A DNA stretch of 64,000 bases, taken from NCBI GenBank assembly GCA_022072165.1, contig JAJVIF010000001.1:709353-773352 (forward strand). Direction: 5' to 3'. Shown in pieces: positions 30,500 through 49,029 of the stretch. A program made the translations under genes and the position numbers. Source of the DNA: a bacterium (lineage in GTDB: Bacteria > JAJVIF01). The notes under the pieces are model-generated. The model worked only from the letters and a program-made list of their open reading frames with translations. It was not told the DNA's origin and made no database searches. The stretch's first letter is position 1, and every line of letters begins with the position of its first letter.

Positions 30500-30904
30500 G
30501 GGGTCCTTGTAAGCGGCGCCGCAAGCCACGCCGCTACCGGCAATGGACCACACCGGAAGACGGTAACGCTTCGCGCCGCCACCACCGCAAGTGGGTGGAG
30601 AGCGGGTCGCGTGAAAGCTCGGAGGGGCGCTCCCCGGGCGTCCAGAGGCCAATAGAAAAGCTACTGGTGGGTCGACCTCCTGGTAGACTGGGGTGTCGAT
30701 CTCCAGGTCGATGGGTTTGGGGACTTCAGTCCCCTACACGGCATTGCACAGATCTGTACGGGCCGCAAATCACGTCCCAGATCTAAAGGCCAGGGCCCCG
30801 GTGTGACGCCATTGCGTTCAGGGCGTCGCGACACGAATGCCGCAGTTCATCCGTTTCCCAGGAAAACCAAAACCCCGGCGGAACACCGGGGTTTAACGTG
30901 ATTC
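30500..30904. other. Non-coding stretch between the RyR gene and the element's left end
   Basis: No convincing gene is seen. The stretch contains a perfect hairpin GGGGAC-TTCA-GTCCCC at 30719-30734, two similar GTCGA(C/T)CTCC(T/A)GG segments near 30681 and 30706, and at its right end the terminator described separately. It may hold a small RNA, but nothing identifies one. The element's own non-coding leader continues from 30914 to the helicase gene at 31038. Confidence 0.5.
30861..30894 (-). terminator. Displaced terminator of the tRNA-Asn gene
   Basis: A 9-bp stem AAACCCCGG / CCGGGGTTT with a 7-base loop. Read on the minus strand it is followed by TTTTGGTTTTCC, a good intrinsic terminator. 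On that strand it directly follows CGGAGCCAA, the same sequence as the tRNA-Asn 3' end 18 kb away. It is therefore the best candidate for the tRNA's native terminator, separated from it by the element. Confidence 0.65.
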
Positions 30905-30913
30905 TTGGCTCCG
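30905..30913. other. attL core (left end of the element)
   Basis: TTGGCTCCG, identical to the core at 48954-48962. To its left is chromosomal DNA with the displaced tRNA terminator; to its right the element's sequence begins. Confidence 0.65.
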
Positions 30914-31037
30914 GTTTGCGGAGACGTATCGAACGCTCCTGGAGGCTCCGGGGGCTGCCATGCGGATTTTGCTGCAATCAGAGACGCTGGCGGCGCCTTA
31001 AGTTGCGGACAAACTGCTGGCCAGTCCCGGTCGGAGT

Positions 31038-34000
31038 ATGATGCCCAAGCTCGGATCGCGGGGCACATCACCATCAGCCATAGGACTAGACCGCTCCATG
31101 CAACTGGAAGAGATCAAGCAAGGATCCATCATTCTCGGGTTGCTTCCCCAACGCCCAGTCGAGGTGCACAGCGTTACCTGGCGGGGATCAAAGTCGGTCG
31201 AGGTGATCTATCGGGATCCCGCCGGGCTCGTGGCAAGCCGAATCCTGTTTCGCACCGATGAACATCGACTCCAGCTCGCGCAAGCGGGGCAACCCTGGAG
31301 TCTGGAGGCCGACGGTGCGGCGCTGCGGCTCGTGTCGGAAGCGGAGCGGATCCATCTCGCGCACCTCTTCGATCCGTACCTCGCAATCCATTTATCAACC
31401 GTCGATCCGCTCCCCCACCAGATCACCGCCGTCTACGACATCCTGCTGCAGCGCGACCGTATCCGCTTTTTGCTCGCCGACGATCCCGGGGCGGGCAAGA
31501 CAATTATGGCCGGGCTCCTGATCCGCGAGCTGCAGGTACGCGGCGATCTTCAGCGCTGCCTGATTGTTTGCCCGGGAGTGCTGGTGGAGCAATGGCAGGA
31601 TGAGCTGTTCTCCAAGTTCGGCGTGCAATTCGACATCATGACCAGGGAAGCCATTGAGGCGAGCCGAACCGGGAATTGGTTTGGGGAAACGGATCTGGCG
31701 ATTTGCCGATTGGACATGCTAAGCCGGAATGAGTCATTGCAGGAGCAACTGGGCGCCTCTCACTGGGATTTGATCGTGGTCGATGAGGCGCACAAAATGT
31801 CGGCGAGCTACTTTGGGAGCGATCTGAAGCTCACAAAACGCTACCGCCTTGGCCAGCTTCTGAGTCGGCTGACGCGGCACTATCTGCTAATGACCGCCAC
31901 GCCGCACAATGGCCATGATGAAGACTTCCAGCTCTTTTTGGCTCTGCTTGATGGCGATCGCTTCGAAGGAAAATTCCGCGATGGCGCCCACCAGATAGAC
32001 ACATCCGACCTCATGCGACGCATGGTGAAGGAAGAGCTCCTGACGATGGATGGAAAGAAGCTCTTCCCGCCACGGTTCGCGCATGTCGCTCCCTATGCGC
32101 TCTCTCCTCTCGAAGCTGCGCTCTACGCGGCGGTCACCGAGTATGTCCGCGAGGAGTTTCAGCGAGTGGAGCGCATGGCCGATGAAGGCCGCAAACGGAC
32201 CGTGGGCTTTGCGCTGACCGTGCTCCAACGCCGACTGGCATCATCCCCCGAAGCGATTTTGCGTTCGCTGGAGCGGCGTCGTGACCGGCTTCAGCGTGAA
32301 CAACGCGAAATGGAAACCTACCAGCGCGGCTCGCAGGAGCTGCTTCGCCTGACGGCTTCCGCACCGCCGGAGGATATCCAGGAATGGGAAGACGAAGCCC
32401 CGGCCGAGGAGGTGGAAAACTTCGAAGACCAGGTCACCGACCTCGCGACAGCCGCACAGACCATCACCGAGCTTCGGCTGGAGATTCAATCCCTCGAACG
32501 ACTGGTGGTGCTCGCACAGCAGGTGCACCAGAGCGAGGAAGACAGTAAGTGGGTGAGTCTCGCCAGTCTCCTCCAGCAGGATGCCGGACTGACCCTCCCG
32601 AGTGGGGATCGTCGAAAACTGGTCATTTTCACCGAGCACCGCGACACCCTCCACTACCTGCGCCTCAAGCTGGAAACCCTGCTGGGCACCCCCGAGGCCA
32701 TCGTCTGCATCCACGGCAGCATGGGACGGGAAGAGCGAAAGAAATCGGAGACCCGCTTCAAAACCGATGACACCGCCCTCATCCTGCTGGCCACCGATGC
32801 CGCCGGCGAGGGCATCAACCTGCAGGTCGCCCACCTCATGGTGAACTACGACCTGCCCTGGAATCCCAACCGCATCGAGCAGCGCTTCGGACGCATTCAC
32901 CGGATCGGCCAGCGCGAACCCTGCCACCTCTGGAATCTGGTGTCCACCGAGACGGTCGAGGGCTATGTCTATGGTGTCCTGCTCAGGAAACTTGAGGTCC
33001 AGCGCGCGAACCTGGGCGACAAAGTGTTCGATGTCCTCGGCCAGGTGACCTTCGGCGAGAACCGGTCCCTCCGCGAACTCATGCTCACGGCCATCCGTAC
33101 GGGAGAGAGCCCCGAGCTCCGGGCCCAACAGGAGGAAATCCTCGATGTCGCCCTCGATCAGTTGCGCGACCTCATCGATGAGCACGCCCTGATCCACGAT
33201 GTCATGGAGACCCGCCGGGTCCAGGACATCCGCCGGGAACTCGCACGCGCCCACGCGATGCGCCTGCAACCTCGTTACATCGGCGCATTTTTCGCGGATG
33301 CGTTCGCCCGTCTTGGTGGCCAGTTGATTCCCCGGGAGCCGGATCGCTTTGAAATCCCCCATGTGCCGGTGGAATTGCGACGACGCGATCGGGAGATCGG
33401 GACCCGGGAGCATGTCGCCGAAAAGTATCAGCGCGTAACCTTCGACAAAACACTCCGCAGCCTCTCCGGAAAAGTTCCCGCCGAATTCCTCTGCCCGGGG
33501 CATCCGCTCCTCGATGCCACCATCGATCTCATCCGCGAACAGTATGGCCATCTCCTCCGTCAGGGCGCGATCCTGGTCGACCCCGCCGATCCGACCACCG
33601 TCCCCCGCTGGCTGGTGTTCCTGCGCCACGAAGTCCGGGGTGGCCCCTTGAACGTCGAGGGCCGGGGGCGGCTGCTCTCCGCCCGGATGCAATTTGTGTT
33701 CGGTTCCCTTGAGCAGGGCGCGGAGGGCGACAGCGCGCGCATCCGTAGCTGGGAAGCCGGGGGCAATGCGCCGTACCTGGACTGCCGTCCTTTGGAGCCC
33801 GAAGAAATCGAGCCCTGTCGCGAATTTTTCCAACAGCCGGGTTGGCAACTGGCCCCCTGCGAAACTGAAGCGCTCGCCTTTGCCATCGAGGAGCTGGTCG
33901 AGCCACACCTGGCTCAGGTCACCGAGCGTCAGTGGACTCAGCTCGACAAAATCCATGCGGCGGTCCGGGCACGTCTAACCGTGGAGTACAACTACCTCGA

Positions 34001-34634
34001 CCTGCGCGCCTCGGAATTGCGGGAGAAGGAGGCGATGGGAAAGCAACAGAAGCGTTCCGCCGCCGATCTGGAACGTCGCGCCGATGACCTCCGCGAGCGC
34101 CTTCAGCAACGGGAAGCCGAGCTCCAGGCCGCCCGCGAAATCTGGGCGGAAGCGCCAGTAGTCATCGGGGGGGCGCTGATCCTCCCACAGGGACTCCTCG
34201 ATCAGATTCAGGGCCGCATGGGCGTGGACTCCGATGCCACCGCCGCCGAGCGCAAACGGATCGAGTTCCTGGCCATGCAGGCGGTGCTCCGGGCGGAGCG
34301 GAGTGCCGGGCGGCTGCCGGAAGATGTTGGCGCTCTGAAGCGTGGCTGGGATGTCGAGTCCCTCGATCCCGAAACCGGCGACACGCTCTTCATCGAAGTG
34401 AAGGGCCGCACCGTCGGTGCGGACACCGTGACGGTGACCTCCGGAGAACAACGCGCTGCGCTGAACGATCTGGAGCATTTCCGGCTGGCTCTGGTTTCGG
34501 TGGACGGCGAAGCCACGACCCTGCGTTATGTCCGCGAGCCGTTCGCTCAGGCGCCTGAGTTTCACGTCGCCTCCACGAATTACCATTGGCGCGAGCTTTG
34601 GGAGCGAGGTCGGCATGCCGCAAACGATCCTTGA
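31038..34634 (+). CDS. SNF2/RapA-like helicase with C-terminal DUF3883, DrmD-like
   Basis: 1198 residues. Helicase motifs are in order: Walker A DDPGAGKT (148-155), DEAH (249-252), MTATPH (285-290), HGSMGREER, LLATDAAGEGINLQ and QRFGRIHRIGQ near residue 620. A coiled-coil-rich insert follows MTATPH and another follows residue 1000. The C-terminal 110 residues are DUF3883, with ERKRIEFLAMQ and DTLFIEVKGR, a PD-(D/E)XK-like layout. This matches the SNF2-like DrmD helicase of class 1 DISARM, which translocates on DNA to help block phage. The N-terminal conserved region begins at Met21 (31098), so that ATG is an alternative start; GGAG stands just before 31038/31041. It heads the defence operon. 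Confidence 0.88.
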   Translation: MMPKLGSRGTSPSAIGLDRSMQLEEIKQGSIILGLLPQRPVEVHSVTWRGSKSVEVIYRDPAGLVASRILFRTDEHRLQLAQAGQPWSLEADGAALRLVSEAERIHLAHLFDPYLAIHLSTVDPLPHQITAVYDILLQRDRIRFLLADDPGAGKTIMAGLLIRELQVRGDLQRCLIVCPGVLVEQWQDELFSKFGVQFDIMTREAIEASRTGNWFGETDLAICRLDMLSRNESLQEQLGASHWDLIVVDEAHKMSASYFGSDLKLTKRYRLGQLLSRLTRHYLLMTATPHNGHDEDFQLFLALLDGDRFEGKFRDGAHQIDTSDLMRRMVKEELLTMDGKKLFPPRFAHVAPYALSPLEAALYAAVTEYVREEFQRVERMADEGRKRTVGFALTVLQRRLASSPEAILRSLERRRDRLQREQREMETYQRGSQELLRLTASAPPEDIQEWEDEAPAEEVENFEDQVTDLATAAQTITELRLEIQSLERLVVLAQQVHQSEEDSKWVSLASLLQQDAGLTLPSGDRRKLVIFTEHRDTLHYLRLKLETLLGTPEAIVCIHGSMGREERKKSETRFKTDDTALILLATDAAGEGINLQVAHLMVNYDLPWNPNRIEQRFGRIHRIGQREPCHLWNLVSTETVEGYVYGVLLRKLEVQRANLGDKVFDVLGQVTFGENRSLRELMLTAIRTGESPELRAQQEEILDVALDQLRDLIDEHALIHDVMETRRVQDIRRELARAHAMRLQPRYIGAFFADAFARLGGQLIPREPDRFEIPHVPVELRRRDREIGTREHVAEKYQRVTFDKTLRSLSGKVPAEFLCPGHPLLDATIDLIREQYGHLLRQGAILVDPADPTTVPRWLVFLRHEVRGGPLNVEGRGRLLSARMQFVFGSLEQGAEGDSARIRSWEAGGNAPYLDCRPLEPEEIEPCREFFQQPGWQLAPCETEALAFAIEELVEPHLAQVTERQWTQLDKIHAAVRARLTVEYNYLDLRASELREKEAMGKQQKRSAADLERRADDLRERLQQREAELQAAREIWAEAPVVIGGALILPQGLLDQIQGRMGVDSDATAAERKRIEFLAMQAVLRAERSAGRLPEDVGALKRGWDVESLDPETGDTLFIEVKGRTVGADTVTVTSGEQRAALNDLEHFRLALVSVDGEATTLRYVREPFAQAPEFHVASTNYHWRELWERGRHAANDP

Positions 34635-34714
34635 TCCACTCTAACATTTGTTCCACTTGCTTGCTAAGATTCACAAACTACACCCAGCCCAAAGGGCTAT
34701 CGAGGAGGGCTCCA

Positions 34715-35770
34715 TTGCCAAGATCTACTTTGGCGGTCCACGATTGGTCTGATCTTCAGGCTGACTACCAGGGGGGCTCGCTACTGATCGGTAACGGCTT
34801 CAGCACCAACATCTGGGAGCCCTTCTCATACGCATCTCTGCTGCAACGTGCTCTGGACTCGCGCACTTCATGGGGTGCTGACGCACTCACGGCCGTGGCG
34901 GAGAAACTGTTTAGTGATCTCTCTACTAATAATTTCGAGGAGGTTATGGGACTGCTCGAAGGGGCAATTCTTGTACTGGCCGCACAATCGAAACCTCTGG
35001 ATCAAGAACAAGAAATCCTGGCCAATGTCAGAACCTGCCTGGTTAAAGCAGTACAGGAAATCCACGTAAGCCATTCGGCGGTAGCGGGGCAGCTCCATGG
35101 AGTCTCCGAGGAGTTTCGAAACTATTCATGGGTCTTTACCACAAATTACGACTTGCTCCCCTACTGGGCGCTCATGAGCCGAGCCGGAAAAAACAACTCC
35201 GTGGCTGGCTTTGACGATTTCTTCCGCAATGGCGAGTTCAGCCGTTATGACTATTACCGAGGGACTGACTGGACAAAGATCTGCTACTTGCATGGAGCTT
35301 TGCATTTATCGCAGTCGGGCAGTAGGACGTCTAAGCTATCCCGAGAACAATTTTCAGATACTTTTTCAGCCGATTCTATTCTGGAGGTATGGGCCGCGAA
35401 GGTTGGAGACGGCACACATAGACCTTTATATGTTGCTGAGGGAACTGCCGCAAAGAAAGAGTCTGCGGTCGCAAACTCGGAGTATCTTCTGCTCATGCGA
35501 GAGGCATTTAGGGCTCTGGGGAGACCGAAGGAGACTTATCTCACCGTAATTGGCCATTCGCTCGGCGGCAGCGATCGGCACCTGCTCGACGCCATGCGTG
35601 GGTGGGACAAGCCCAAGATTGCAGTCTCTGTTAGGCTCCCTCCAGGTGACGACGCTAGTTCGAGGGCTTCGCTCTTGCAGGAGCTTCAACAAGCCGACAT
35701 CACATTCTTCTCCGCGGAAACGCACCCATTGCTCGCACCCAGCCTCCGAGTCACAGGGACCCCACCATGA
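34715..35770 (+). CDS. DUF4917-family, SIR2-like protein of the defence operon
   Basis: 351 residues from a TTG start 6 bases after GAGGAGG. DUF4917 features are visible: LLIGNGFSTNIWEPFSYASLL, FTTNYDLLPYW, LHGALHL, PLYVAEGTAAKKE and IGHSLGGSDRHLLDA. The FTTNYD and GNG elements resemble SIR2-type NAD-binding proteins, so an NAD-related effector role is possible, but no activity is established for DUF4917. Base composition and codon use are plainly less GC-rich than the genes on both sides, which suggests a separately acquired cassette. It ends in an ATGA overlap with the methylase gene, so it is co-translated with the operon. An open frame beginning at 34586 inside the helicase gene is rejected. 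Confidence 0.78.
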   Translation: MPRSTLAVHDWSDLQADYQGGSLLIGNGFSTNIWEPFSYASLLQRALDSRTSWGADALTAVAEKLFSDLSTNNFEEVMGLLEGAILVLAAQSKPLDQEQEILANVRTCLVKAVQEIHVSHSAVAGQLHGVSEEFRNYSWVFTTNYDLLPYWALMSRAGKNNSVAGFDDFFRNGEFSRYDYYRGTDWTKICYLHGALHLSQSGSRTSKLSREQFSDTFSADSILEVWAAKVGDGTHRPLYVAEGTAAKKESAVANSEYLLLMREAFRALGRPKETYLTVIGHSLGGSDRHLLDAMRGWDKPKIAVSVRLPPGDDASSRASLLQELQQADITFFSAETHPLLAPSLRVTGTPP

Positions 35771-38748
35771 ACCCCGCTCCCCCCTACAAGACCAAGCTGA
35801 TCGAGGTCGCCCTGCCGCTGGAGGACATCAACCGCGAATCCGCGCGGGAGAAGTCCATCCGGCACGGACATCCCTCGACCCTGCATCTATGGTGGTCCCG
35901 CAAACCGCTGGCGACCTGTCGCGCGGTCATCTGGGCCTCCCTGGTGGATGACCCCTCCACGGTCGGCTATCGCGATCTTGCGGGGCAGTTGTGCGACACC
36001 GTGGAGAAGCAGACGGTCGAGCGCGAGCGTCTCTTTGACATCCTGCGGCGGCTGGTGATCTGGACCAACTCCAACGACCCCCGGGTGCTGGCTGAGGCTC
36101 GGGCGGAGATCATGCGGGGCACCGACAACAATCCGCCGCCGGTCTACGATCCCTTTTGTGGGGGCGGCTCGATCCCCCTGGAAGCCCAGCGCCTGGGCTT
36201 ACAGGCGCATGGCTCGGACCTCAATCCGGTCGCGGTGCTGATTACCAAGGCGCTCATCGAAATCCCCCCCAAATGGGCAGGCCAACCCCCGGTGAACCCC
36301 GAGGACCGCGAGAGCCGACTTGGGGGGACAGTCCGAGAAAAGGCCCCCCTACCCCCCGGCGGGGGAACACCCCAGTCTTCGTCCGCATCTGTGACAGCGG
36401 CAACAACATCGCTAGTTCCCCCTCCGGGGGGTAGGGGGGCCTCCGCCTCTGCTAAAGGGGGGGGAATGACTGCCTGGCCCGGAGCCAAGGGGCTCGCGGC
36501 GGATGTGCGTTACTACGGCCAGTGGATGCGGACCGAGGCCGAGAAACGCATCGGCCATCTCTACCCGACGGTCACGCTCCCTAAGAAACAGGGGGGCGGC
36601 GAGGCCACAGTCATCGCGTGGCTCTACTGCCGGACTGTCATGTGCCCCAATCCGGCGTGTCAGGCGCAGATGCCACTGGCCAGCAAGTTCTGGCTCTCGA
36701 CGAAGAAGGGCAGGGAAACATGGGTCGAGCCGGTGGTCGAGCCGGGGGCCCCGCCGACGATCCGGTTTGAGGTGAAGACGGGCAAGGGGAAAGCCCCGGA
36801 GGGAAATGTTAATCGTCGCGGAGCAACATGTATAGCTTGCGGCACGACGATGCCACTTGAGGCAATTCGACAGGCTGGAAGAGAAGGCAATCTGGGCTCT
36901 CAGATGATGGCGATCGTGGCAGCGGGCCACCGCCAGAGAATCTATGTAAATCCTAGCAACGAGCAGGCTCAAGTTGCGGCATCAGCCAAACCGAGATGGA
37001 AGCCGGAGGAATTACTGGCAGAAAATCCGCGTTACATGGCTCCTCCTCTGTATGGGATGTCCAGATTCTCTGATCTCTTCACTTCCCGGCAGCTCGTCGC
37101 CCTCACGACCTTCTCCGACCTCATCAGCGAGGCGCGCGCGCAGATCGAGCAGGACGCCCTCGCGGCGGGGCTGGCCGACGACGGGATCGGGCTCGAGGCG
37201 GGGGGCATCGGTGCCAGGGCGTACGCGGAGGCGGTAAGTGTGTACTTGGGGTTTGCGGCAAACAAGTGCGCCGACTACTGGACTTGTCTTTCAACTTGGA
37301 TGCCTCGCGGAACTGTTCGCAACTGCTTTAGCCTTCAAGCAATAAAAATGGCTTGGGACTTTGCAGAGGCTAACCCTATTTCCGATTTCCATTGTGCGTG
37401 GCATGAAACCTTTGAGTGGGTAGCTAAGTGCATCGATCAAGTGCCGGGGGGTCCTGCGGGCGCTGTGAAGCAGAACACAGCTCAACTCGGAATGACTCAG
37501 GGCAACATCTGCATTTCGACCGACCCTCCCTACTATGACAACATCGGGTATGCCGATTTGGCTGACTTTTTCTACGTCTGGCATCGTCGCAATCTCGGAG
37601 AAATAATGCCTGAGATGTTCTCGACGTTGCTCGTGCCGAAGACACCGGAACTGGTCGCAACTCCTTACCGATTTCGTGGCAGCAAGGCGAAAGCACAAGC
37701 CTTCTTCGAGAAAGGGCTGGGGGAAGCATTTTCTGCAATGCGGAAAAGCCAACACCCTGATCTTCCGCTGACGGTGTATTACGCATTCAAGCAAGCAGAA
37801 ACTGAGGAAGAAGGGGCCTCGGAGAAGCGAGTCACCAAGAAAGCTATGAGCACTGCCTCCACGGGATGGGAAACGATGCTTTCGGGATTGATCGCAGCTG
37901 GGTTCCAAACAACTGGCACATGGCCTATGAAAAGTGAGCGAACGGCGCGCACTGTTGCGATCGGCACCAACGCCCTTGCATCTTCCATTGTCCTCGTCTG
38001 CCGACCGCGTCCCGACGATGCGCCCTTAGCAACCAAACGCGAGTTTGTCGCCGCACTCCACGCGGAACTCCCTGAAGCGATCCGGCTCATGCAATCAGGC
38101 AACATCGCCCCGGTCGACCTCGCCCAGGCCTCCATCGGCCCCGGGATGGCGGTCTTCTCCCGCTACAGCAAGGTGCTCGAGGCCGATGGCACCGCCATGC
38201 CGGTCCGCACCGCTCTCCAGCTCATCAACCAGACCCTCGATGAGGTCCTTCACGCCGAGGACAACGACTACGACAACGACACCCGCTGGGCCATCACCTG
38301 GTTCGAGGAGCACGGGTTCGGCGAGGGCAAGTCGGGCACCGCCGAGACCCTGGCCTCGGCCAAAAACATCTCGGTCAAGGGACTGGAAACCGCCGGGATC
38401 CTGATCGCGAGCAAGGGGATCGTGCACCTGAAACGCCCCGAGGAACTGGAGGCGTCCTGGGATCCCCAGACCGATGCGCGCCTGACAGTCTGGGAGACCA
38501 CCCACCAGCTCATACGCGCCCTGGAGTCGAGTGAGCAGGCGGCAGCGGCGTTGCTCAGGCGGATCGGCACCGGCTACGCTGCCTCGGCCAAGCAGCTCGC
38601 CTACCGGCTCTATGCTATCTGTGAGCGGAAAAAGTGGGCTAAAGATGGCGGGGGGTACAACCTCCTGATTGTCGCGTGGCCGGAGCTGGAGAAACTCAGC
38701 CGCCAGCAGGCCACCGATGAGCAGGCGGTCCAGCAGGAGATGTTCTAA
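35767..38748 (+). CDS. DUF1156 DNA methylase (COG1743-type, N6-adenine/N4-cytosine class)
   Basis: 993 residues. The N-terminal DUF1156 stretch (KTKLIEVALPLEDINRESAREKS, HPSTLHLWWSRKPLATCRAVI) is followed by the SAM motif DPFCGGG (128-134) and the catalytic motif DPPY (586-589, in STDPPYYDNIGYADLADFFYVW). Between them are CPNPAC and CIAC pairs of a zinc ribbon. The layout is that of large amino-methyltransferases that mark self DNA in defence loci. A palindromic insertion (36341-36442) adds about 35 Pro/Gly/Ser/Ala residues after the SAM motif without breaking the frame. Two central segments (about 36810-37080 and 37300-38030) are clearly less GC-rich than the rest, pointing to recombination. 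Confidence 0.88.
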   Translation: MNPAPPYKTKLIEVALPLEDINRESAREKSIRHGHPSTLHLWWSRKPLATCRAVIWASLVDDPSTVGYRDLAGQLCDTVEKQTVERERLFDILRRLVIWTNSNDPRVLAEARAEIMRGTDNNPPPVYDPFCGGGSIPLEAQRLGLQAHGSDLNPVAVLITKALIEIPPKWAGQPPVNPEDRESRLGGTVREKAPLPPGGGTPQSSSASVTAATTSLVPPPGGRGASASAKGGGMTAWPGAKGLAADVRYYGQWMRTEAEKRIGHLYPTVTLPKKQGGGEATVIAWLYCRTVMCPNPACQAQMPLASKFWLSTKKGRETWVEPVVEPGAPPTIRFEVKTGKGKAPEGNVNRRGATCIACGTTMPLEAIRQAGREGNLGSQMMAIVAAGHRQRIYVNPSNEQAQVAASAKPRWKPEELLAENPRYMAPPLYGMSRFSDLFTSRQLVALTTFSDLISEARAQIEQDALAAGLADDGIGLEAGGIGARAYAEAVSVYLGFAANKCADYWTCLSTWMPRGTVRNCFSLQAIKMAWDFAEANPISDFHCAWHETFEWVAKCIDQVPGGPAGAVKQNTAQLGMTQGNICISTDPPYYDNIGYADLADFFYVWHRRNLGEIMPEMFSTLLVPKTPELVATPYRFRGSKAKAQAFFEKGLGEAFSAMRKSQHPDLPLTVYYAFKQAETEEEGASEKRVTKKAMSTASTGWETMLSGLIAAGFQTTGTWPMKSERTARTVAIGTNALASSIVLVCRPRPDDAPLATKREFVAALHAELPEAIRLMQSGNIAPVDLAQASIGPGMAVFSRYSKVLEADGTAMPVRTALQLINQTLDEVLHAEDNDYDNDTRWAITWFEEHGFGEGKSGTAETLASAKNISVKGLETAGILIASKGIVHLKRPEELEASWDPQTDARLTVWETTHQLIRALESSEQAAAALLRRIGTGYAASAKQLAYRLYAICERKKWAKDGGGYNLLIVAWPELEKLSRQQATDEQAVQQEMF
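36341..36442. repeat. In-frame palindromic MITE-like insertion in the methylase gene
   Basis: Two 28-bp arms (36341-36368 and 36415-36442) are inverted copies with 27 of 28 positions matching, separated by 46 bp. Each arm begins or ends with AGGCC/GGCCT and contains runs of C or G. The host frame passes through and gives a PPGGG...PPPGGRG peptide. This fits small palindromic elements that insert inside genes without stopping translation. Confidence 0.8.
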
Positions 38749-38798
38749 CTCAGAATTCCCCCCGGAGAACTCCCCTAACCCCGGAGAACTCCCCCCAG

Positions 38799-38988
38799 CC
38801 CCCTCTTTTCCCAAGCGAAAAGAGGGGGAGCCAGAGAGCCAGAGCGATCCCTCTGGCCCCCCCTTTTTTTCCTTCTGAGGAAAAAGAGGGGGCCGGGGGG
38901 AGTTCACGGATCCAGCGCGGTAAGCCAGAACTACCAGGTCACTCCTCTGGCCCCCCCTCTCCAATCCTTCTGAGGATTGGAGAGGGGG
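38799..38988. repeat. Three tandem C/G-rich palindromes between the methylase and ATPase genes
   Basis: Palindrome 1 is at 38799-38828 (12-bp arms, loop CCAAGC). Palindrome 2 is at 38855-38894 (imperfect, loop TTCTGA). Palindrome 3 is at 38953-38988 (perfect 15-bp arms, loop TTCTGA). All share the CCCCCTCT / AGAGGGGG ends, and CTCTGGCC precedes copies 2 and 3, so they are copies of one element family. GGAGAACTCCCC is also repeated at 38764 and 38783. They fill most of the 281-bp gap and could fold into strong RNA hairpins that set apart expression of the downstream ATPase. Confidence 0.8.
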
Positions 38989-39029
38989 CTGGGGGGTGAG
39001 GAACGGTTCACAGCAAGGAGATCGAACGC

Positions 39030-42000
39030 ATGTCGCTCAGCAATCGGGATCGGGTGGGGCAGGTCATGGATCTGCTCAAGGCAGGCGTAGAGCCCTATGT
39101 GCGCCGTCGGCTGGATGCGGAGCTGGGCGCGAACTGGGCCGCGGGGTACGCGGGTGCCACCGCCGCCCCGCGTCCGCTAGTGGCGGCAGGACGTCGGCCC
39201 ACCGGCGCCGAGGCGGTCGCGGCCGGACGAGCCCGGGAGGCCCTGGACATCCTCGCCCTCCTGAAAGCCATGCGCGACAACTGGAACGCGAGCTTCGCCC
39301 CGGAGCTCGGGCAGATCCTCCGCTCGGTCTGCCATGAACTCATCGAATGGCGTCATCAATGGGCACACCAAAGCGATTTTTCCACAGAGGACACGCTCCG
39401 TGTGATGGATAACGCCAAACGTCTGCTGGAGGCGATCTCGGCAGGGGACCAGTCGATGGCGATCGAGCAGCAGCGCCGCGAGCTGCTGTCGCTCCAGGTG
39501 AAAGAACAGGGGCGGGCGGAATTTCGCAAGGTCCAGATGGATCTGATCGCGACCGAGTCGGTGCCGGACAAACTGGAGGGATGGCGTCAGGTCATCACCC
39601 CGCGGCAGGATGTGCGGGAGGGGTCGTTTGAGCTCGCGGGGTATGCCGCCGATTTGTGGGAGGTCTATAAGGGCGCGGCGACGAAGGAATATGGGGATCC
39701 GATCGAATTTTTCGCGCGTACGTATCTCACCAACGGCCTGCGGGAACTGCTGGTCCAGGCGGTGAAACGCCTGACCAAACAGGGCGGGGCGCCAGTCATC
39801 CAGTTGCAGACCAATTTCGGCGGGGGGAAGACGCACTCGATGCTGGCCCTGTGGCACCTCACGAGCGGGGTCGATGCCGCCAGACTGCCGGGGGTCGAGA
39901 CGGCCCTCCTGGAGCCGCTGGGGCAGAAGGCATTCCCGACCGTGCGTCGTGCTGTCTTCGTGGGCACCAAGCGGGGTCCGGCGGAGATCGTGACGCCGGA
40001 AAAGGGGGTCGAGATTCACACCTTGTGGGGGGAACTCGCGTATCAGCTGCTGGGCAAGAAGGGCTATGGGCTGGTGGCGGAATCGGACAAAGCGGGGGTG
40101 AATCCGGGGGGAGGCCTGAAGGCGCTCCTGGAGCAGGCGGCGCCCTGTCTGATCATGATCGATGAGTGGGTGGCCTATGCACGGCAACTCGCGGATGAGC
40201 CCGGGCTGCCGGCGGGAACCCTCGGGGCACAGCTCACCTTCGCGCAATCGCTCACCGAGGCGGCGAGCAATACGCCCGGCGTGCTGTTGGTGGTGTCGGT
40301 GCCGGAGTCGGATATGGAGGTGGGCGGTCCGGCGGGAGCGAATGTGCTGGAGAAATTGCGGCATCACATTGGACGAGTGGAGACCAGCTGGCGACCGGCG
40401 GATCGGGCGGAGAGCTTCGAGATCGTGCGGCGGCGCCTGTTCGAGGATCTGCCCTCGGAACAGGTCCGCAAGCGCGATGCGGTCTGCATGGCGTTCTCCG
40501 AGTCGTACCGCAAGCAGGTGGGGGATTTCCCCGCCAACTGCCGGGACAAGGCATACGAGGATGAACTGAAACTGGCATATCCAATCCATCCGGAGGTCTT
40601 CACGCGGCTGTATGAGGACTGGTCGACGGGGATCGAGAAGTTCCAGCGGACTCGCGGTGTGTTGCGGCTCATGGCGATTGTCGTGCATCACCTGTGGGAG
40701 GGTGGCGACAGTCACCTGATGATCATGCCCGGGACCATCCCGATGGACATCGATGCGGTGCAGAACGAGCTCACTCGCTACCTGGAAGAAAACTGGCGCC
40801 CGGTCATCGACCAGGAAATCGCGGGACCCGGATCGCGGGCGCAGCAACTGGATCTTTCCCATCCGCAATTCGCGAAGGTCGGTGCGGCGCGGAAAATCGC
40901 GCGGACGGTGTTCCTCGGTTCGGCACCGTTGCAGAAAACCGCGAATCGGGGCATCGAGGACCTGCGCATCAAACTGGGATCCGTCCAGCCGGGAGAGAAT
41001 CCGGCAACTTATGGCGACGCGTTGCGTCGGCTCAGCGACGCGGGGGTGTATCTCTATTCCAGCGCGAACAAGTACTGGTATGGGCTCCAGGCGACGATCA
41101 ACCGCCTGGCGGTCGAGCGGGCGGAGCGGTATGGGCGCGATGAGGAGGCGATCAGCCAGGAGTTGTCCAATCGGGTGAAGCTCCTGTTCAAAAATCGGGG
41201 GAAGTGGCCAAAGATTTCGGTCTGTCCGCGGGATCCGAGCGAGGTTGGAGACGATGCGGAGGCGCGGCTGGTCGTGCTGAGTCCGGAGGAGTGGTACGAC
41301 CCGAAACAGGCGGAGCAGTCGCCGGCGCTGGCCTCGGCGAAGAAGATTCTGGAGGAGCGGGCCGGCGGTCCGCGTCGGCATAAAAACGTGCTGTTTTTCC
41401 AGGTGCCCCTCAAAGCGCACCTGGAGAAGCTGAACGAAAAGGCCGCGACGTATCTCGCGTGGCACTCCATCGATGGCGACATCGCCTCAGGGAATCTGGA
41501 GGTCGATGGCCAGCAGAAAAAGCAGGCGAAGGACAAACTGCACGAAGCCGACGCCACCCTGCTGGCCTCGCTGCCGGAACTCTACGCCCACGTGCTGTAT
41601 CCCTCGATGAAGAAGGAGCCGGGCTCACCGGTCGTTTGGGAGGGGCAGAAACTGTCGTTGTCCCGCGATGGCGATCCGGCAGTCGAGTCGTTCCGCAAAC
41701 TCGAGCAAGTGAGCGTGTTGATCGACAATCTCGGGGCGACCGTGCTGCGGATGGAAATGGATCGTATCCCCTTGTGGGAGCGCAACCTGGACCATGTCGA
41801 GATCAGGAAACTGGGCGATCTCTTCCCGGTGTATCTCTACCTGCCCAAGCTGAGCACACCTGGCGTCCTCGAGCGGTGCATCGCGACCGGTCTGGAGGGA
41901 CTGCAGATTAATCCGGAGACCTTCGCCTATGCCGAAAGCTATGACGATGAGCGTGGGCGATACGTAGGACTGGTGGAGGGTCGCCTGCCCTACCTCACGC

Positions 42001-42434
42001 TCGATGGTGCGGGCCTGCTGGTGAAGGCTTCGGTGGCGCGTGCGCAGCTCGATGCGGAGCGCGCGGCGGCGGACGCCGCTGCGCGGGCGGCACTGCCGGC
42101 CGGCGAGATGGATATCGGCGTTGGAAAGACGGATGGACCCGTCCCGGCCGGAGATACTCCCCCTCGGCCCACCATGAACGAACCGGTTGCTCCAGCGTTG
42201 CCCACTCGATTTCACGGCTCCGTGCTCCTCGATCCGACACGGGTCGGTCGCGAGGCGGGGAAAATCGCCGATGAGGTGATCACGCACCTGGAGAAGCTCA
42301 TCGGGGCGAAGGTCGAAGTACGGCTGGAAATCCAGGCGACACTGCCCGAGGGATACCCAGAGGATGTCCAGCGGACAGTCTCGGAGAACTCGCGGACGCT
42401 GAAATTCACCGGGTTTGGCTTCGAGAAGTTCTGA
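39030..42434 (+). CDS. Swt1-HEPN/DUF499 AAA ATPase of the defence operon
   Basis: 1134 residues. The N-terminal 140 residues resemble a Swt1-type HEPN domain: RDRVGQVMDLLKAGVEPYVRRRL, then ELIEWRHQWAHQSDFSTEDTLRVMDNAKRLLEAI, with an RX4H motif at Arg108-His113, the signature of HEPN ribonucleases. The DUF499 (COG1483) ATPase follows, with the Walker A variant NFGGGKTHS near residue 265 and Walker B CLIMIDEWVAYARQL near 375. The C-terminal region is a helical domain with a Pro/Thr linker. DUF499 ATPases accompany DUF1156 methylases in defence islands. ATG lies 9 bases after AAGGAG. The HEPN part may make the protein an RNA-cutting effector; this is inference. Confidence 0.86.
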   Translation: MSLSNRDRVGQVMDLLKAGVEPYVRRRLDAELGANWAAGYAGATAAPRPLVAAGRRPTGAEAVAAGRAREALDILALLKAMRDNWNASFAPELGQILRSVCHELIEWRHQWAHQSDFSTEDTLRVMDNAKRLLEAISAGDQSMAIEQQRRELLSLQVKEQGRAEFRKVQMDLIATESVPDKLEGWRQVITPRQDVREGSFELAGYAADLWEVYKGAATKEYGDPIEFFARTYLTNGLRELLVQAVKRLTKQGGAPVIQLQTNFGGGKTHSMLALWHLTSGVDAARLPGVETALLEPLGQKAFPTVRRAVFVGTKRGPAEIVTPEKGVEIHTLWGELAYQLLGKKGYGLVAESDKAGVNPGGGLKALLEQAAPCLIMIDEWVAYARQLADEPGLPAGTLGAQLTFAQSLTEAASNTPGVLLVVSVPESDMEVGGPAGANVLEKLRHHIGRVETSWRPADRAESFEIVRRRLFEDLPSEQVRKRDAVCMAFSESYRKQVGDFPANCRDKAYEDELKLAYPIHPEVFTRLYEDWSTGIEKFQRTRGVLRLMAIVVHHLWEGGDSHLMIMPGTIPMDIDAVQNELTRYLEENWRPVIDQEIAGPGSRAQQLDLSHPQFAKVGAARKIARTVFLGSAPLQKTANRGIEDLRIKLGSVQPGENPATYGDALRRLSDAGVYLYSSANKYWYGLQATINRLAVERAERYGRDEEAISQELSNRVKLLFKNRGKWPKISVCPRDPSEVGDDAEARLVVLSPEEWYDPKQAEQSPALASAKKILEERAGGPRRHKNVLFFQVPLKAHLEKLNEKAATYLAWHSIDGDIASGNLEVDGQQKKQAKDKLHEADATLLASLPELYAHVLYPSMKKEPGSPVVWEGQKLSLSRDGDPAVESFRKLEQVSVLIDNLGATVLRMEMDRIPLWERNLDHVEIRKLGDLFPVYLYLPKLSTPGVLERCIATGLEGLQINPETFAYAESYDDERGRYVGLVEGRLPYLTLDGAGLLVKASVARAQLDAERAAADAAARAALPAGEMDIGVGKTDGPVPAGDTPPRPTMNEPVAPALPTRFHGSVLLDPTRVGREAGKIADEVITHLEKLIGAKVEVRLEIQATLPEGYPEDVQRTVSENSRTLKFTGFGFEKF

Positions 42435-42494
42435 CCATCTAGGACAGCCCGGTCCACCTACGATCGCCCAGAACGCGGAAACTAATCAAACCCC

Positions 42495-42523: not shown

Positions 42524-42546
42524 GAACGCAGAAGAAAGGGGCGCCT

Positions 42547-42915
42547 ATGACAACTGCACCGAAACTGACCTTGGGAGGCCTGATTCGCAGTCGCCGCATG
42601 GAGAGACGTGTCACGCTCCGCAACTGCGCTGCGCAGGCAGAGATTTCCGCGACCTACCTCTCCATGATCGAGCGCAATGAGCACTCGACCCCGCCAGCCG
42701 AGGATGCGCTCGCCCGGATCGCAACCGTCCTCGAACTGGACCCAGGGGAGCTGCTGGCGCTCGCTGGTCGGATTCCGGAGGATGTCGAGGAAATCCTTAA
42801 GGCAGGTCCTGTAGAGCTCGCGACCTTTCTCCGCACTGCACAGAATCTGTCCCCTGCGCAACTGAAACAACTCACTGAACAAGCAGAAGCCCTGCGCAAA
42901 AAGAAGAAGCCATAG
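42547..42915 (+). CDS. XRE-family helix-turn-helix regulator
   Basis: 122 residues. An N-terminal HTH_3/XRE domain is seen (LGGLIRSRRMERRVTLRNCAAQAEISATYLSMIERNEHSTPPAEDALARIATVLELDPGELL in segments), followed by helices ending in a basic RKKKKP tail. It is paired with an ImmA-type protease 39 bp downstream, the arrangement used by integrative elements in which the protease destroys the repressor to start excision. Its operators probably lie around the promoter at 42495. ATG follows AAAGGGG by 6 bases. Confidence 0.87.
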   Translation: MTTAPKLTLGGLIRSRRMERRVTLRNCAAQAEISATYLSMIERNEHSTPPAEDALARIATVLELDPGELLALAGRIPEDVEEILKAGPVELATFLRTAQNLSPAQLKQLTEQAEALRKKKKP

Positions 42916-42954
42916 CTGATCACCGAGATCCACCCATCCAAGGGGGACAGATAG

Positions 42955-44250: not shown

Positions 44251-46662
44251 ATGAACCCATCGAGCTTCGTAACAACTTGGGCGCCCAGTGAAAACGATCC
44301 CATCGCGGTCTGGGCGGATCGGTACATCAGCGATTTTGACCTCGGACTCGTGGTGCTTGCACCGGGCACTAAGGCTGCCATCGACCCAGATTGGCCCAAA
44401 CAGCCGCTAACCTCGACTGGAGAAGCGCAGCTTCGCTGGGACAAAAGTCCGACACCTAACTTGGGAGTGCACCTGGAATCCTCACGGATACTGTCGCTGG
44501 ACGTCGATGACGTGGCGCATTGCCGGCGTGCCCTGGCAGCAGCAGGCGTTGACTTGGACCAGCTTTTAGGTCATGGGGTCGCGATCCAGGGGCATCCGGC
44601 CAAAGCCAAGCGACTCTACGCAGCGCCTGCGGGGGAGACATTTCGCACGCACAAGCTCAGCTTCATAGGCTCTGGCGCAGACGGAGACCCAGAGAAGAGT
44701 AAGAAGGCGACCATGGTCCTGGAACTGCGCTGCCAAGGAGCTCAGGACGTCTTCCCTCCCTCGATCCACCCGGACACAGGAGGGCAGTATCGGTTTCTCC
44801 CGGATCGCGACCCGTGGACCCTGGGCGGATTTCCGAAAGCCCCTGAGTCGCTCTTGCAACTTTGGCGATATTGGGACACGATCCGCCCTCGACTCTCCAC
44901 CGCCCTGCCTCGGGCTCCTGAATCTGTTCCGCAAATTGGGACCCGGGAGATCCGTTCCCGGAACTCTTCCGCCTGGGATCGCGTTCGCCGGGAGATCCTC
45001 CAGCGACTCTCAATCCGTGAGGCACTCAGTCGTTTGGGAGCGAGTCCAGGCAGCAGCGACAAGCTCTCATGTCCCCTCCATCCTCCCGATCGGCATCCCA
45101 GCGCCTGGATCTGGCAATGCCCTGATGGGATCGAGCGACTAATTTGTGCTCACGGAGTCCAGCCCGCTGCTGGTATCGGAGTTCTGACGGATGGAGGCTA
45201 TCTGATGCTCGACTCGATTGACCTGGAGGCGCATCGCCTGAGCGTCGGCGCTGGACGGGCAACCACGGTTCTTGCCCATGAACTCGGAATCCCTGTTCCC
45301 CAGAAAAAGTCGCCGCCGCTCACTGATTCGGGCAATGCAGAGCGAATGGTGCAAGCCTACAGGGACCGGATCTGTCATTGTCACTCCTGGAAGAAATGGC
45401 TCGTGTGGACTGGATCTCATTGGGCGGAGGATCGGCTGGGGAAACTGCAGCAGTTTGCAAAGCTCACCGCGCGTAGCCTATACGAAGAGGCGAGCAAGCA
45501 CCCTGACAAAGAGCGCCGTGCAGCGCTTGCCAAGTGGGCGCTCAAATCAGAGTCGGCGGCCGCCCGCAGGGCAGCCATAGCACTGGCCGAATCTGAGCCG
45601 GGAATTCCAATCCTACCGGAGCAGTTGAATTCAGATCCCTGGCTGCTCAATGTCGCGAACGGCACCATCGATCTTCGAACCGGAACGATCCGCTCCCACG
45701 ATCCGGCAAACCGGATCACCGCTTTCATTCACGTTCCTTTCGATCCAACCGCAGCCTGTCCAGTCTGGGAGGCGACGCTCCTGCAGATCATGGGAGGGGA
45801 ACAGGCCATGGTCGACTATCTCGCACGGGCTCTGGGATACGCGCTGACCGGTGTCATTCAGGATCATGTGCTTTTCTTCCTGCATGGGAAGGGGCGCAAC
45901 GGCAAGACAACTGTGCTCAACACAGTGCGCCGGATCCTAGGAAGCGACTATGCGCTCGAAGCCCCTCCGGACCTCCTGATTGCCAAGCGAAATGACACGC
46001 ACCCCACGGAGCGGGCAGCGCTCTACGGCAAGCGCTTTGTCACTACAGTTGAGACGGAGCGGGGCCGTAGGTTTGCCGAGGCGCGCCTGAAGCAGCTTAC
46101 TGGTGGAGACCCGATCACTGCCCGGCGAATGCATGAGGACTTCTGGACCTTTGAGCCGTCGCACAAGCTGTTCCTGGCAGGAAATCACAAGCCACAAATT
46201 GGAGGCACTGATGATGGGATCTGGTCTCGCATTCATCTGATCCCGTTCACAGTGTCATTTCGGGGGCGCGAAGATACTGCGCTCGCCGAAAAGCTGGAAG
46301 CGGAACAGGCAGGAATTCTCGCTTGGCTAGTTCGCGGGTGCCTGAACTGGCGGAAGCTGGGGCTAAATCCGCCTCCCGGCGTGGTCGCGGCGGGTGAGGC
46401 CTACCGGCAGGAAATGGATACGCTGGCTGGATTCATCAGTGAGCGCTGCCAATTCGATCCAGTGTGCTTTACTGCCGGAGCCAGCCTCTACGATGCCTAC
46501 TGCGAGTGGGTTAAGGAAGAGACCGGTGAGCAACCCCTCAACCGGCGCGCGTTCAACGCTGGGTTGGAAGAAAGAGGATGCCACAGCCATCGGAGCGCGT
46601 TCGAACGTGGGTGGCGCGGAATCTCACTCCGGAGCGCGTCGAGCCAGGATGAGGTTCAATGA
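44251..46662 (+). CDS. P4-type primase-polymerase/helicase of the element
   Basis: 803 residues. The N-terminal about 250 residues resemble a bifunctional primase-polymerase domain (WPKQPLTSTGEAQLRWDKSPTPNLGV, LSLDVDD, with the acidic DVDD pair). A D5/P4-type region follows (LLNVANGTIDLRTG), then an SF3 helicase with Walker A GKGRNGKTT (546-554), VTTVETERG, LTGGDPITARRMHEDFWTFEPSHKLFLAGNHKP and IWSRIHLIPFTV. A C-terminal winged-helix-like part contains LNRRAFNAGLEERG. Such proteins start replication of P4-like satellites and plasmids, so the element probably replicates after excision. ATG lies 10 bases after AAAGGAGG. Confidence 0.87.
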   Translation: MNPSSFVTTWAPSENDPIAVWADRYISDFDLGLVVLAPGTKAAIDPDWPKQPLTSTGEAQLRWDKSPTPNLGVHLESSRILSLDVDDVAHCRRALAAAGVDLDQLLGHGVAIQGHPAKAKRLYAAPAGETFRTHKLSFIGSGADGDPEKSKKATMVLELRCQGAQDVFPPSIHPDTGGQYRFLPDRDPWTLGGFPKAPESLLQLWRYWDTIRPRLSTALPRAPESVPQIGTREIRSRNSSAWDRVRREILQRLSIREALSRLGASPGSSDKLSCPLHPPDRHPSAWIWQCPDGIERLICAHGVQPAAGIGVLTDGGYLMLDSIDLEAHRLSVGAGRATTVLAHELGIPVPQKKSPPLTDSGNAERMVQAYRDRICHCHSWKKWLVWTGSHWAEDRLGKLQQFAKLTARSLYEEASKHPDKERRAALAKWALKSESAAARRAAIALAESEPGIPILPEQLNSDPWLLNVANGTIDLRTGTIRSHDPANRITAFIHVPFDPTAACPVWEATLLQIMGGEQAMVDYLARALGYALTGVIQDHVLFFLHGKGRNGKTTVLNTVRRILGSDYALEAPPDLLIAKRNDTHPTERAALYGKRFVTTVETERGRRFAEARLKQLTGGDPITARRMHEDFWTFEPSHKLFLAGNHKPQIGGTDDGIWSRIHLIPFTVSFRGREDTALAEKLEAEQAGILAWLVRGCLNWRKLGLNPPPGVVAAGEAYRQEMDTLAGFISERCQFDPVCFTAGASLYDAYCEWVKEETGEQPLNRRAFNAGLEERGCHSHRSAFERGWRGISLRSASSQDEVQ

Positions 46663-46834: not shown

Positions 46835-47350
46835 GTGCAACAGAAGACTGGCGCTCTGGCACTTGTGAGCGGGGAACGAACCCTCCGGGCTCTGGAGCTG
46901 CGCAAGCAGGGCTGCACCTATGTCGCGATCGCCGCCGAGCTCGGCGTTAGCCCTCAGGCCGTACACAAGCGGGTCGCGAAAGTCCTCCAGCTGATGCACG
47001 AGGAGGTCGAAGAGGAAGGCAAGTCGTTGCGACGCCTGGAAGCCGAACGCCTCGATGCCCTCCAGCTGGCCTGCTGGAATCAGGCAATGCGGGGCAACCT
47101 CAAGGCCGTCGAGCAGGTCCTCCGAATCATGGATCGCCGGGCCCGGCTGCTGGGCCTTGATCAGGCGCCAAAGCAGGAACTCATCAGCATCACAGAGTTG
47201 CAGGAACGGATCGCCCGGGTATTCACGGGATACACCGACCCGATGCCTCTCGCCGATGATGACGGAACCTCGCTCCCCGATTGGTGGGAAGAAGATCATC
47301 CGCAGCTCAGCGAACCACCCAGAATCGAAACCCTGGAGCACGCCGCATGA
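46835..47350 (+). CDS. HTH protein coupled to the serine recombinase
   Basis: 171 residues from a GTG start 8 bases after AAAGGAGG. An N-terminal helix-turn-helix is seen (RTLRALELRKQGCTYVAIAAELGVSPQAVHKRVAKVLQ), followed by a long helical part (LRRLEAERLDALQLACWNQAMRGNLKAVEQVLRIMDRRARLLGLD). This resembles small-terminase-like HTH proteins, a layout often found with recombinases. Its stop overlaps the recombinase start as ATGA, so it may act as a recombination directionality or control factor. A longer open frame from 46394 runs through the primase gene and is rejected. Confidence 0.72.
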   Translation: MQQKTGALALVSGERTLRALELRKQGCTYVAIAAELGVSPQAVHKRVAKVLQLMHEEVEEEGKSLRRLEAERLDALQLACWNQAMRGNLKAVEQVLRIMDRRARLLGLDQAPKQELISITELQERIARVFTGYTDPMPLADDDGTSLPDWWEEDHPQLSEPPRIETLEHAA

Positions 47351-48996
47351 CACGAAAGACCGGCAAGACCACGAAGCCCAACTCGATCCCGCTGGGAGTG
47401 CCACAGGCAGTCCTTTATGCCCGCGTGTCATCGAAGGAGCAGGAGAAAGAGGGCTTTTCCATCCCAGCGCAACAGAAGCTCCTGGTGGAGTACGCGGAGG
47501 CTCAAGGAATCGCGATCGCCGCCGAGTTTGTGGATATCGAGACCGCAAAGGCCTCCGGGCGGACGGGCTTCTCGGAGATGTTGGCGTTCCTCCGGACCAA
47601 CGCCCGGACCTGCCGTACGCTGCTGGTTGAAAAAACCGATCGCCTCTACCGCAACCTGAAGGACTGGGTCACCCTCGATGAGCTGGATCTCGAAATCCAT
47701 TTTGTAAAAGAGGGAGTGGTTCTCTCCGCCGATTCCCGCTCCTCCGAGAAGTTCATGCACGGGATCAAGGTCCTGATGGCAAAAAACTACATCGACAACC
47801 TCTCCGAGGAAACACGCAAAGGGATGAACGAGAAGGCGGAGCAGGGCTACTACCCCTCCTATGCGCCTCTCGGGTACAAGAACACGCTGGGACCGGATGG
47901 GAAGCGGGTCATCGAGCCGGATCCCGAGTATGCCCCTCTGATTCGGCAACTGTTCGAGTGGCACGCGACCGGCCAGTACACCCTGGCGCAAACCGGGAAG
48001 ATGGCTCGCGACTCCGGCCTCTGCTTCCGTAAGAGTGGCGCTCCCCTCCCTAGCACCTCCGTTCACAAGATCCTCAGGAATCGCACCTATACCGGCGATT
48101 TCATGTGGAAGGGTCGCGTCTTTAAGGGCAAGCACGAGGCCCTGGTCGATCAGGATCTCTGGGATCGAGTCCAGGAGGTCATGGACCGGCGCACGCACAA
48201 GCGCCCAGGCTTTCGCCGTCACGACTTCGCCTTCGCCGGGCTTGTCTCCTGCGGGCACTGCGGATGTTTGCTCACTGGGCAGATCCAAAAGGAAAGGTTG
48301 ATCTACTACCACTGCTCAGGGTTCAAGGGGCGCTGCGGGGAGCCGTATCTTCGGGAGGAGAAGCTCTCGGAGCACCTAGGCGGGGTCCTGGAAGCCCTGC
48401 AGTTCGATGACCAGGTCGCGGCCTGGGTGCTCCAGGCGCTCAGAGAGAGCCACGGCGACAAGAAGCAATTCCAGAATGAGGCGATTGCCAAACTTGAAGC
48501 CCAGCGCGCGCAGCTCCAGGACCGCCTGGACGCAATGTATGTGGACAAACTCGATGGCCGGATCTCGCTGGAGTACTACGAGCGGATCTCCGGCCAATGG
48601 CGGGGCGAGCAGGATGCGCTCCTCCGGGCGATCCAGAGCCATCAGGGCGCCGATCACGACTACATGGAAGAGGGCATCCAGCTCCTGGAGCTCGCCCAGC
48701 GTGCCCACGGCCTTTTCCTGCAGCAGGAGCCCCGGGAGCAGCGCCGGCTCCTGAATTTTGTCCTGGAGGACTGTTCCTGGAAAGAAGGGACGCTCACCCC
48801 GGTCTACAGGCCGCCATTCGACCTCCTGGCCGCGACTGTCGCGGAGGATCGTGCGCTCCAGTCTCGAACCGCCCAGGCGAATTCCACTTTCGAACGGCCG
48901 CAAACCCGCATAAACAGAACCCCCGGAGGGCCTTCCGGGGGTCGAAAAGAAATTTGGCTCCGCGAGAGGGATTTGAACCCCCAACCTAGTGGTTAA
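47347..48996 (+). CDS. Large serine recombinase (integrase) of the element
   Basis: 549 residues. The resolvase domain has catalytic Ser28 in YARVSSKEQ, then LLVEKTDRLYRNLKD and GIKVLMAKNYIDNLSEETRKGM. A Recombinase domain follows (YPSYAPLGYKN...VHKILRNRTYTGDFMWKG), then a zinc ribbon with CGHCGC and the second Cys pair near HCSGFKGRC, and a coiled coil. The frame runs on through a stem-loop, across the attR core, and stops inside the tRNA-Asn gene in antisense, giving the tail WLRERDLNPQPSG. This tail is created by the integration junction. The enzyme cuts and joins att sites for insertion into tRNA-Asn. Confidence 0.92.
   Translation: MTRKTGKTTKPNSIPLGVPQAVLYARVSSKEQEKEGFSIPAQQKLLVEYAEAQGIAIAAEFVDIETAKASGRTGFSEMLAFLRTNARTCRTLLVEKTDRLYRNLKDWVTLDELDLEIHFVKEGVVLSADSRSSEKFMHGIKVLMAKNYIDNLSEETRKGMNEKAEQGYYPSYAPLGYKNTLGPDGKRVIEPDPEYAPLIRQLFEWHATGQYTLAQTGKMARDSGLCFRKSGAPLPSTSVHKILRNRTYTGDFMWKGRVFKGKHEALVDQDLWDRVQEVMDRRTHKRPGFRRHDFAFAGLVSCGHCGCLLTGQIQKERLIYYHCSGFKGRCGEPYLREEKLSEHLGGVLEALQFDDQVAAWVLQALRESHGDKKQFQNEAIAKLEAQRAQLQDRLDAMYVDKLDGRISLEYYERISGQWRGEQDALLRAIQSHQGADHDYMEEGIQLLELAQRAHGLFLQQEPREQRRLLNFVLEDCSWKEGTLTPVYRPPFDLLAATVAEDRALQSRTAQANSTFERPQTRINRTPGGPSGGRKEIWLRERDLNPQPSG
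48919..48942 (-). terminator. Element-borne terminator now downstream of tRNA-Asn
   Basis: A 9-bp stem ACCCCCGGA / TCCGGGGGT with a 6-base loop, 12 bases before the tRNA 3' end. On the minus strand it is followed by TCTGTTTATG. It apparently replaces the native terminator displaced to 30861-30894. It also lies inside the recombinase reading frame on the other strand. Confidence 0.55.
48954..48962. other. attR core (right end of the element)
   Basis: TTGGCTCCG, identical to 30905-30913. It covers the encoded CCA, the discriminator base and the first four bases of the 3' acceptor strand of tRNA-Asn, so integration regenerates the tRNA gene. Confidence 0.65.
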
Positions 48997-49029
48997 CAGC
49001 CACCCGCTCTACCGTTGAGCTATCGCGGA
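48955..49029 (-). tRNA. tRNA-Asn (GTT)
   Basis: Read on the minus strand, the acceptor stem TCCGCGA pairs with TCGCGGA, and the D arm is GCTC-AACGGTA-GAGC. The anticodon arm is GGTGG-CTGTTAA-CCACT with anticodon GTT (Asn). The T arm is GGGGG-TTCAAAT-CCCTC, the discriminator base is G, and CCA is encoded. The gene is the integration target of the 18-kb element and remains complete. Confidence 0.95.

Follow-up and report, generated by a model that had tools for sequence, protein, structure and literature searches.

A serine recombinase gene that appears to span its own attachment site at a tRNA-Asn gene and to lose a conserved C-terminal extension on integration

A large serine recombinase (LSR) gene whose frame crosses the attachment site of its element and stops on the antisense strand of a tRNA-Asn gene raises the question of whether the integrated element and the circle encode different enzymes, and whether such a difference is under selection. 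The locus lies in a window of 64,000 nucleotides, the whole stretch of DNA that was analysed, in which the gene and the ends of the element are located as follows:

47347..48996, + strand: LSR gene in the integrated form, 549 aa, last 13 codons from antisense tRNA-Asn
47347..48954, + strand: part of the LSR gene common to both forms, 536 codons, ATG at 47347
30906..31001, + strand: displaced 3′ end of the LSR gene, a 31-codon C-terminal extension plus stop, read only with the circle closed
48954..48962: attR core, TTGGCTCCG
30905..30913: attL core, TTGGCTCCG
48955..49029, − strand: tRNA-Asn (GTT), the target gene, left intact (ARAGORN)

Past codon 536 the frame enters TGG (48955-48957), which is antisense to the CCA of the tRNA, and runs on to the stop codon TAG at 48994-48996 within the antisense tRNA-Asn, giving the tail WLRERDLNPQPSG. 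Joined at the other core copy (30905-30913), the frame ends in WLRFAETYRTLLEAPGAAMRILLQSETLAAP with the stop codon TAA at 30999-31001; the common part is then followed by 31 instead of 13 codons and the protein has 567 instead of 549 residues, i.e., 18 more. Both frames had been proposed in an earlier note made from the sequence alone. When the coordinates were read again, the integrated frame, with its crossing of the attR core and its stop in the antisense tRNA-Asn, was correct to the base, the stop of the joined frame was confirmed and the claimed gain of about 20 residues was a fair figure. Since the gene runs across the attachment site and its tail is cut off on insertion, the enzyme of the integrated element differs from that of the circle, and since the extension is displaced on integration, the LSR gene is complete only in the circle.

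By Pfam, the enzyme has serine recombinase domains only and is not a tyrosine recombinase. The Pfam domains Resolvase (21-168), Recombinase (193-282) and Zn_ribbon_recom (296-342) follow each other in this order, all above the cut-offs. Residues Y24, R26, V27 and S28 are invariant in 52 sequences and belong to YxRVS, the motif that holds the catalytic serine of LSRs. In an AlphaFold model of the integrated form, built with 52 sequences (mean pLDDT 85.7), order extends to residue 487 and a further helix spans 491-514; the tail beyond the fold is of low confidence, and the placement of the domains is uncertain (pTM 0.47). In a Foldseek comparison of this form solved LSRs came first (9dxh, E = 5e-20; 9iu2 (Bxb1), 1.1e-16; 4kis, 1.4e-13), with a low global TM. 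By its fold, then, the integrated protein is a complete LSR whose end is loose.

To cover the family, 86 loci were used, namely 80 from genome contigs (the best 80 of 216 confirmed), five from IMG/VR and the window; they were picked by similarity of the first 504 LSR residues, the tail not being used. Carriers of such elements include, for example, isolates of Kordiimonadales IMCC3096, Enterovirga and Nitrobacter. An intact antisense tRNA lies directly downstream in 68 of the 86 loci (ARAGORN), the targets being Gln (36), Asn (27), Pro (2), Glu (1), Leu (1) and Ser (1). Among these tRNA-adjacent loci, the TGG antisense to CCA stands in the LSR frame in 67, which rules out a chance crossing. 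Measured from query residue 492, TGG lies at exactly 75 nt in 64 of the 68 loci, the exceptions being the window (132 nt), L072 (87 nt), L075 (84 nt) and L079 (76 nt). L079 is also the sole exception to the frame, being off by one base; at 11422-11700 of this locus there is a one-base slip at an A run before the tRNA, and a second tRNA-Asn follows about 130 bp further on, possibly a decayed or double target.

The 18 loci without an ARAGORN tRNA were not counted as tRNA-adjacent. By eye, nine of them contain a partial tRNA 3′ part (L003, L012, L013, L034, L050, L053, L055, L058, L070) and seven no clear tRNA downstream of the LSR (L005, L016, L033, L051, L057, L086, L087), and in L017 and L064 the contig ends downstream of the LSR. 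In L003 and L053 a partial tRNA 3′ half abuts the LSR and is followed by what appears to be another element, possibly of the tyrosine-integrase type, which looks like stacked insertions at one tRNA. In L051 (10028-11944) the tRNA-less LSR frame continues past WLPG into a ParB-like helix-turn-helix stretch as a 638-codon ORF, possibly a fusion, a tandem junction or an assembly effect.

A second sample comprised 385 genomes of the class of the L035 genome, in a draw not made for the frame rule. It contained seven LSRs at E ≤ 1e-100. Six of them, L035 included, cross a tRNA in that frame, either tRNA-Asn or tRNA-Gln; the remaining one is a 43% paralogue in genome G284 with another C-terminus. On contig 4 of G284 two LSR genes (L241, L243) stand in tandem, and the first, 43% identical to that of the window, differs in its C-terminus and is unsplit; it is possibly an ancestor-like form or a helper.

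The tail that is written by the tRNA varies in sequence and in length, from 4 to 60 residues in 15 elements, by which a conserved functional tail of this kind is ruled out; it is best seen as filler marking the loss of the extension. The left ends of the elements first came to light as short core repeats, after which the pattern TGG-N20-TCGAAC was used to find them. Translation in the LSR frame gives WLPF-like peptides, each about 30 residues long and closed by a stop codon. An amino-acid profile built from ten of these peptides was run on 50 of the 80 locus genomes and matched in 38 of them at E ≤ 0.05 (best 1.4e-19), the other 12 having no match at this threshold; 30 loci were read. Together with the window, L053 and L054 they form a set of 33 distinct sequences, in all of which the frame of the extension fits that of the LSR. 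The residues W (32), R9 (33), T10 (32) and P15 (33) are conserved in this set, and the extension of the window is among the more divergent ones.

Since this set was found mostly by an amino-acid profile, its frame and pS/pN figures are biased toward coding. For this reason a set chosen by DNA only is considered as well, for which the pattern TGG-N20-T[CA]GAAC and at least 6 nt identical to the right core of the same element were required, the motif T[CA]GAAC having been learnt from extensions already seen. Of 45 pattern matches outside the right core, 16 were kept, and all 16 encode a WLPF..xYRTxCxAP.. peptide. In codons 11-27, none of the 16 has a stop in frame vs. 3 and 10 of 16 in the other two frames. 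Eight independent pairs of this set differ at 40/27/62 sites by codon position (p = 0.0004), with a pS of 0.57 and a pN of 0.237. For comparison, 16 pairs of the 33-sequence set differ at 54/28/86 sites, and for codons 11-27 of that set the differences are 77/52/116 (p = 6.6e-6). Furthermore, the distances between LSRs and between extensions correlate over 15 elements (Mantel r = 0.94, p = 1e-4), the measured ends of which are 3.7-39 kb apart. At the level of substitution patterns, the extension is thus shown to be selected as a protein, under purifying selection, and the split LSR gene is supported as a family-wide arrangement rather than an accident of this locus. The different C-termini of the integrated and circular forms claimed in the earlier note were hence upheld from both element ends, as part of a selected arrangement of the whole family; its emphasis on the tRNA-written tail was not, as the important tail is the extension that integration removes.

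The assigned ends of the element were examined with the aid of four further features:

30929..30934, + strand: TCGAAC motif in the element arm, 23 nt from the TGG start, candidate zinc-ribbon contact
48973..48978, + strand: TTGAAC, antisense of the tRNA T-loop, 18 nt from the TGG start, candidate zinc-ribbon contact in attB
30870..30894, − strand: terminator hairpin adjoining attL
48918..48943, − strand: hairpin inside the LSR coding frame, just before the tRNA

The copies of the core are identical over exactly 9 bp and enclose a span of 18,049 bp. By itself, this repeat is weak evidence for the ends, and there are three further supports. At the left end, the core is followed by a terminator hairpin in the sense of the tRNA, as expected of the original tRNA terminator, which the hairpin at 30870-30894 probably is. 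The layout TGG-N20-T[CA]GAAC is found at the 16 left ends chosen by DNA, that of the window included, and the peptide at the left end is conserved in these 16. The hairpin at 48918-48943 sits in an LSR linker that exceeds the usual family length by 57 nt, and this hairpin is probably a replacement terminator for the tRNA, carried by the element inside its own gene.

Independent support for the ends comes from the spacing of the motifs. On the recombinase (attR) side, T[CT]GAAC lies 18 nt from TGG in 76 of the 86 loci and 23 nt from it in 2, and is absent in 8; on the extension side, a TCGAAC-like motif lies 23 nt from TGG in all 33 extensions. The attP half-site is thus 5 bp longer than the attB half-site (23 vs. 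18 nt), as judged from one arm only. This equals the published difference between attP and attB: according to Rutherford et al. (PMC3783163), the zinc-ribbon motif of LSR sites is 5 bp closer to the centre in attB than in attP. In many Gln elements the core match is limited to the first bases (TGGCTG). The data suggest that the LSR reads the T-loop of many different tRNAs; tRNA 3′ ends are probably targeted via the T-loop and CCA, which are near-invariant and could explain the use of many tRNAs. In L005, at 11501, an LSR is followed by the 23-nt spacing of the attP type and the short tail WLPSLNRPRTFSS, possibly an unrecombined or decayed attP.

We consider it likely that the enzyme is an LSR inserting at tRNA 3′ ends whose gene spans attP, so that the circle would encode the complete enzyme and the integrated element one without the extension and with changed activity. 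This reading builds on what was shown, namely the frame and both ends, the conservation of the frame in the family, the coding constraint under which the extension stands, its divergence in step with that of the LSR, and the element half-site that is longer by 5 bp. Translated from the circle, the protein would consist of the LSR domains, then a linker that measures about 25 aa in most relatives, and last the extension with its roughly 30 aa. With the core situated within the gene, crossover there would shift the codons of the extension to the opposite end of the element, and antisense tRNA would take their place, leaving an LSR of complete fold without the extension. The full-length form would be the integrating form, and the shortened form would most likely be unable to integrate and either be competent for excision with a directionality factor or stay dormant until full-length enzyme is supplied. 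Excision by such a form is reported for phage Mx8, whereas silence has been proposed for SSV integrases. The swap of tails may in this way alter the direction or the activity of movement. Because LSR and extension have stayed intact over deep divergence, circles must keep forming, often enough for selection to act on the joined gene.

Two rival explanations deny the extension its place at the end of the recombinase. It might be conserved as DNA only, as the recombinase-binding arm of attP, with the peptide as a by-product. A binding arm is required at this place, with the TCGAAC-like motif fixed at 23 nt in all 33 extensions, yet codons 11-27 lie beyond a half-site of about 25 bp and still vary most at third positions, with pS > pN. 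Moreover, 22 of the 33 sequences use CGA as codon 9 and the other 11 use AGA, so the arginine is kept while the DNA motif changes, and we regard this explanation as very improbable. It is likewise very improbable that the left-end peptide belongs to a separate small gene, e.g., for a directionality factor, although it is located at an element end, co-diverges with the LSR and has a possible start (GTG or TTG) at codon 5 in 16 of the 33 extensions. No start codon is common to the first 20 codons of this set and 3 of the 33 have none at all there, the frame agrees with that of the LSR throughout, and conservation extends to the TGG of the core, upstream of which the DNA is host chromosome and differs between elements.

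The other two rivals accept the split gene and concern its consequences. Integration could be suicidal, the loss of the extension inactivating the recombinase and locking the element in, with excision requiring full-length enzyme from elsewhere. The layout, which is that of the SSV-type integrases of archaea as described in a 2021 review (PMC8371274), and the constraint on the extension speak for it; the whole LSR fold is kept in the integrated form, however, and 80 of 85 related LSR genes are free of internal stops in the aligned part, and we see this outcome as possible but somewhat doubtful. Alternatively, the gene may simply adjoin attP to save space, with a tail of no regulatory role. Integrase genes commonly abut attP and the tRNA-written tail is unconserved, but purifying selection on the extension as a peptide and the linker held at 75 nt in 64 of 68 loci make a mere overlap unlikely.

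For the preferred reading, a tRNA-inserting LSR cut short by its own integration, the nearest analogues are both tyrosine integrases, SSV1 and Mx8. SSV-type integrases (SSV1, pTN3, pT26-2) likewise have attP in the integrase gene, which is split on integration, and their resulting inactivation has been proposed; the review places self-disrupting recombinases exclusively in archaea (PMC8371274). Judged from its two element ends, the window LSR gene also contains attP and is split on integration. SSV-type enzymes are, however, tyrosine recombinases in which the split separates the catalytic part, whereas here a bacterial serine recombinase of complete fold loses only a C-terminal extension. In the Myxococcus phage Mx8, attP lies within the int coding sequence and integration creates a new 3′ end; the prophage form was reported to be active with changed specificity (PMC6070905). 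Mx8 Int matches the tyrosine-integrase domain Phage_int_M in Pfam and has no serine-recombinase domain, so the window enzyme is not of the Mx8 type; Beside the archaea-only statement of the review, Mx8 nevertheless stands as a tyrosine integrase from bacteria whose C-terminus is altered. The LSRs of A118/LI, Bxb1 and PhiC31 share the domain order, the fold and the 5-bp zinc-ribbon shift between attP and attB, but the window LSR differs from them in using a tRNA 3′ end as its site and in having attP within its own gene. A serine integrase gene split by integration was not found in the literature searched, which covered few subscription papers and is thus weak evidence of absence.

In the collections searched, no circle or episome was found in which a complete extension follows an intact LSR. 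The joined peptide was found neither in IMG/VR nor in plasmids, and a protein search of plasmids and phages gave no relative above 33% identity among the matches listed. Chromosomal junctions were observed in L179 and L193, where a remnant of the LSR C-terminus and the extension share one frame, as expected for tandem insertions; the junction in L165 is similar but has a frame change within the remnant. In the 385-genome draw, 9 genomes have the extension (E ≤ 1e-7), 6 an LSR (E ≤ 1e-100) and 3 both (Fisher p = 0.00017). At these thresholds 6 of the 9 extension genomes are without an LSR and 3 of the 6 LSR genomes without an extension, and mismatches in both directions mean that ends were lost or missed; possible causes are the decay of elements, breaks between contigs and membership of other subfamilies. 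For the window element, the 4 genomes found for the phylum contain no close relative with which to look for an empty site. For Devosia, a related genome has both flanks about 1.5 kb apart without the element, which supports insertion while not being a base-exact empty site, and for Nitrobacter the site yielded the right flank alone.

The value of serine integrases lies in their one-way action, with a separate factor needed for reversal. If integration makes the members of a family change their own C-terminus, this would represent a natural state-dependent switch; the family is also one of serine recombinases aimed at tRNA 3′ ends. It is quite possible, if tentative, that the extension is a built-in directionality determinant that is removed by integration without a separate factor, and that this device arose independently in serine and tyrosine integrases; integration would then be limited to enzyme translated across attP, and the state of the element would be locked to the form of the enzyme. 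Annotation pipelines will mostly show such LSR genes in their shortened, tRNA-tailed form.

The remaining genes of the element considered here are:

44251..46662, + strand: primase-polymerase/D5-type helicase gene
31038..42434, + strand: cargo, with HmaA (31038-34634), DUF4917/PDC-S21 (34586-35770), HmaB (35767-38748) and HmaC (39030-42434)

In the region 31038-43671, a SIR2-like DUF4917 gene is inserted in the anti-phage system HmaABC, which is accompanied by an HTH/M78 pair resembling the regulator and protease CapH/CapP. The element is thus a defence island and perhaps satellite-like.
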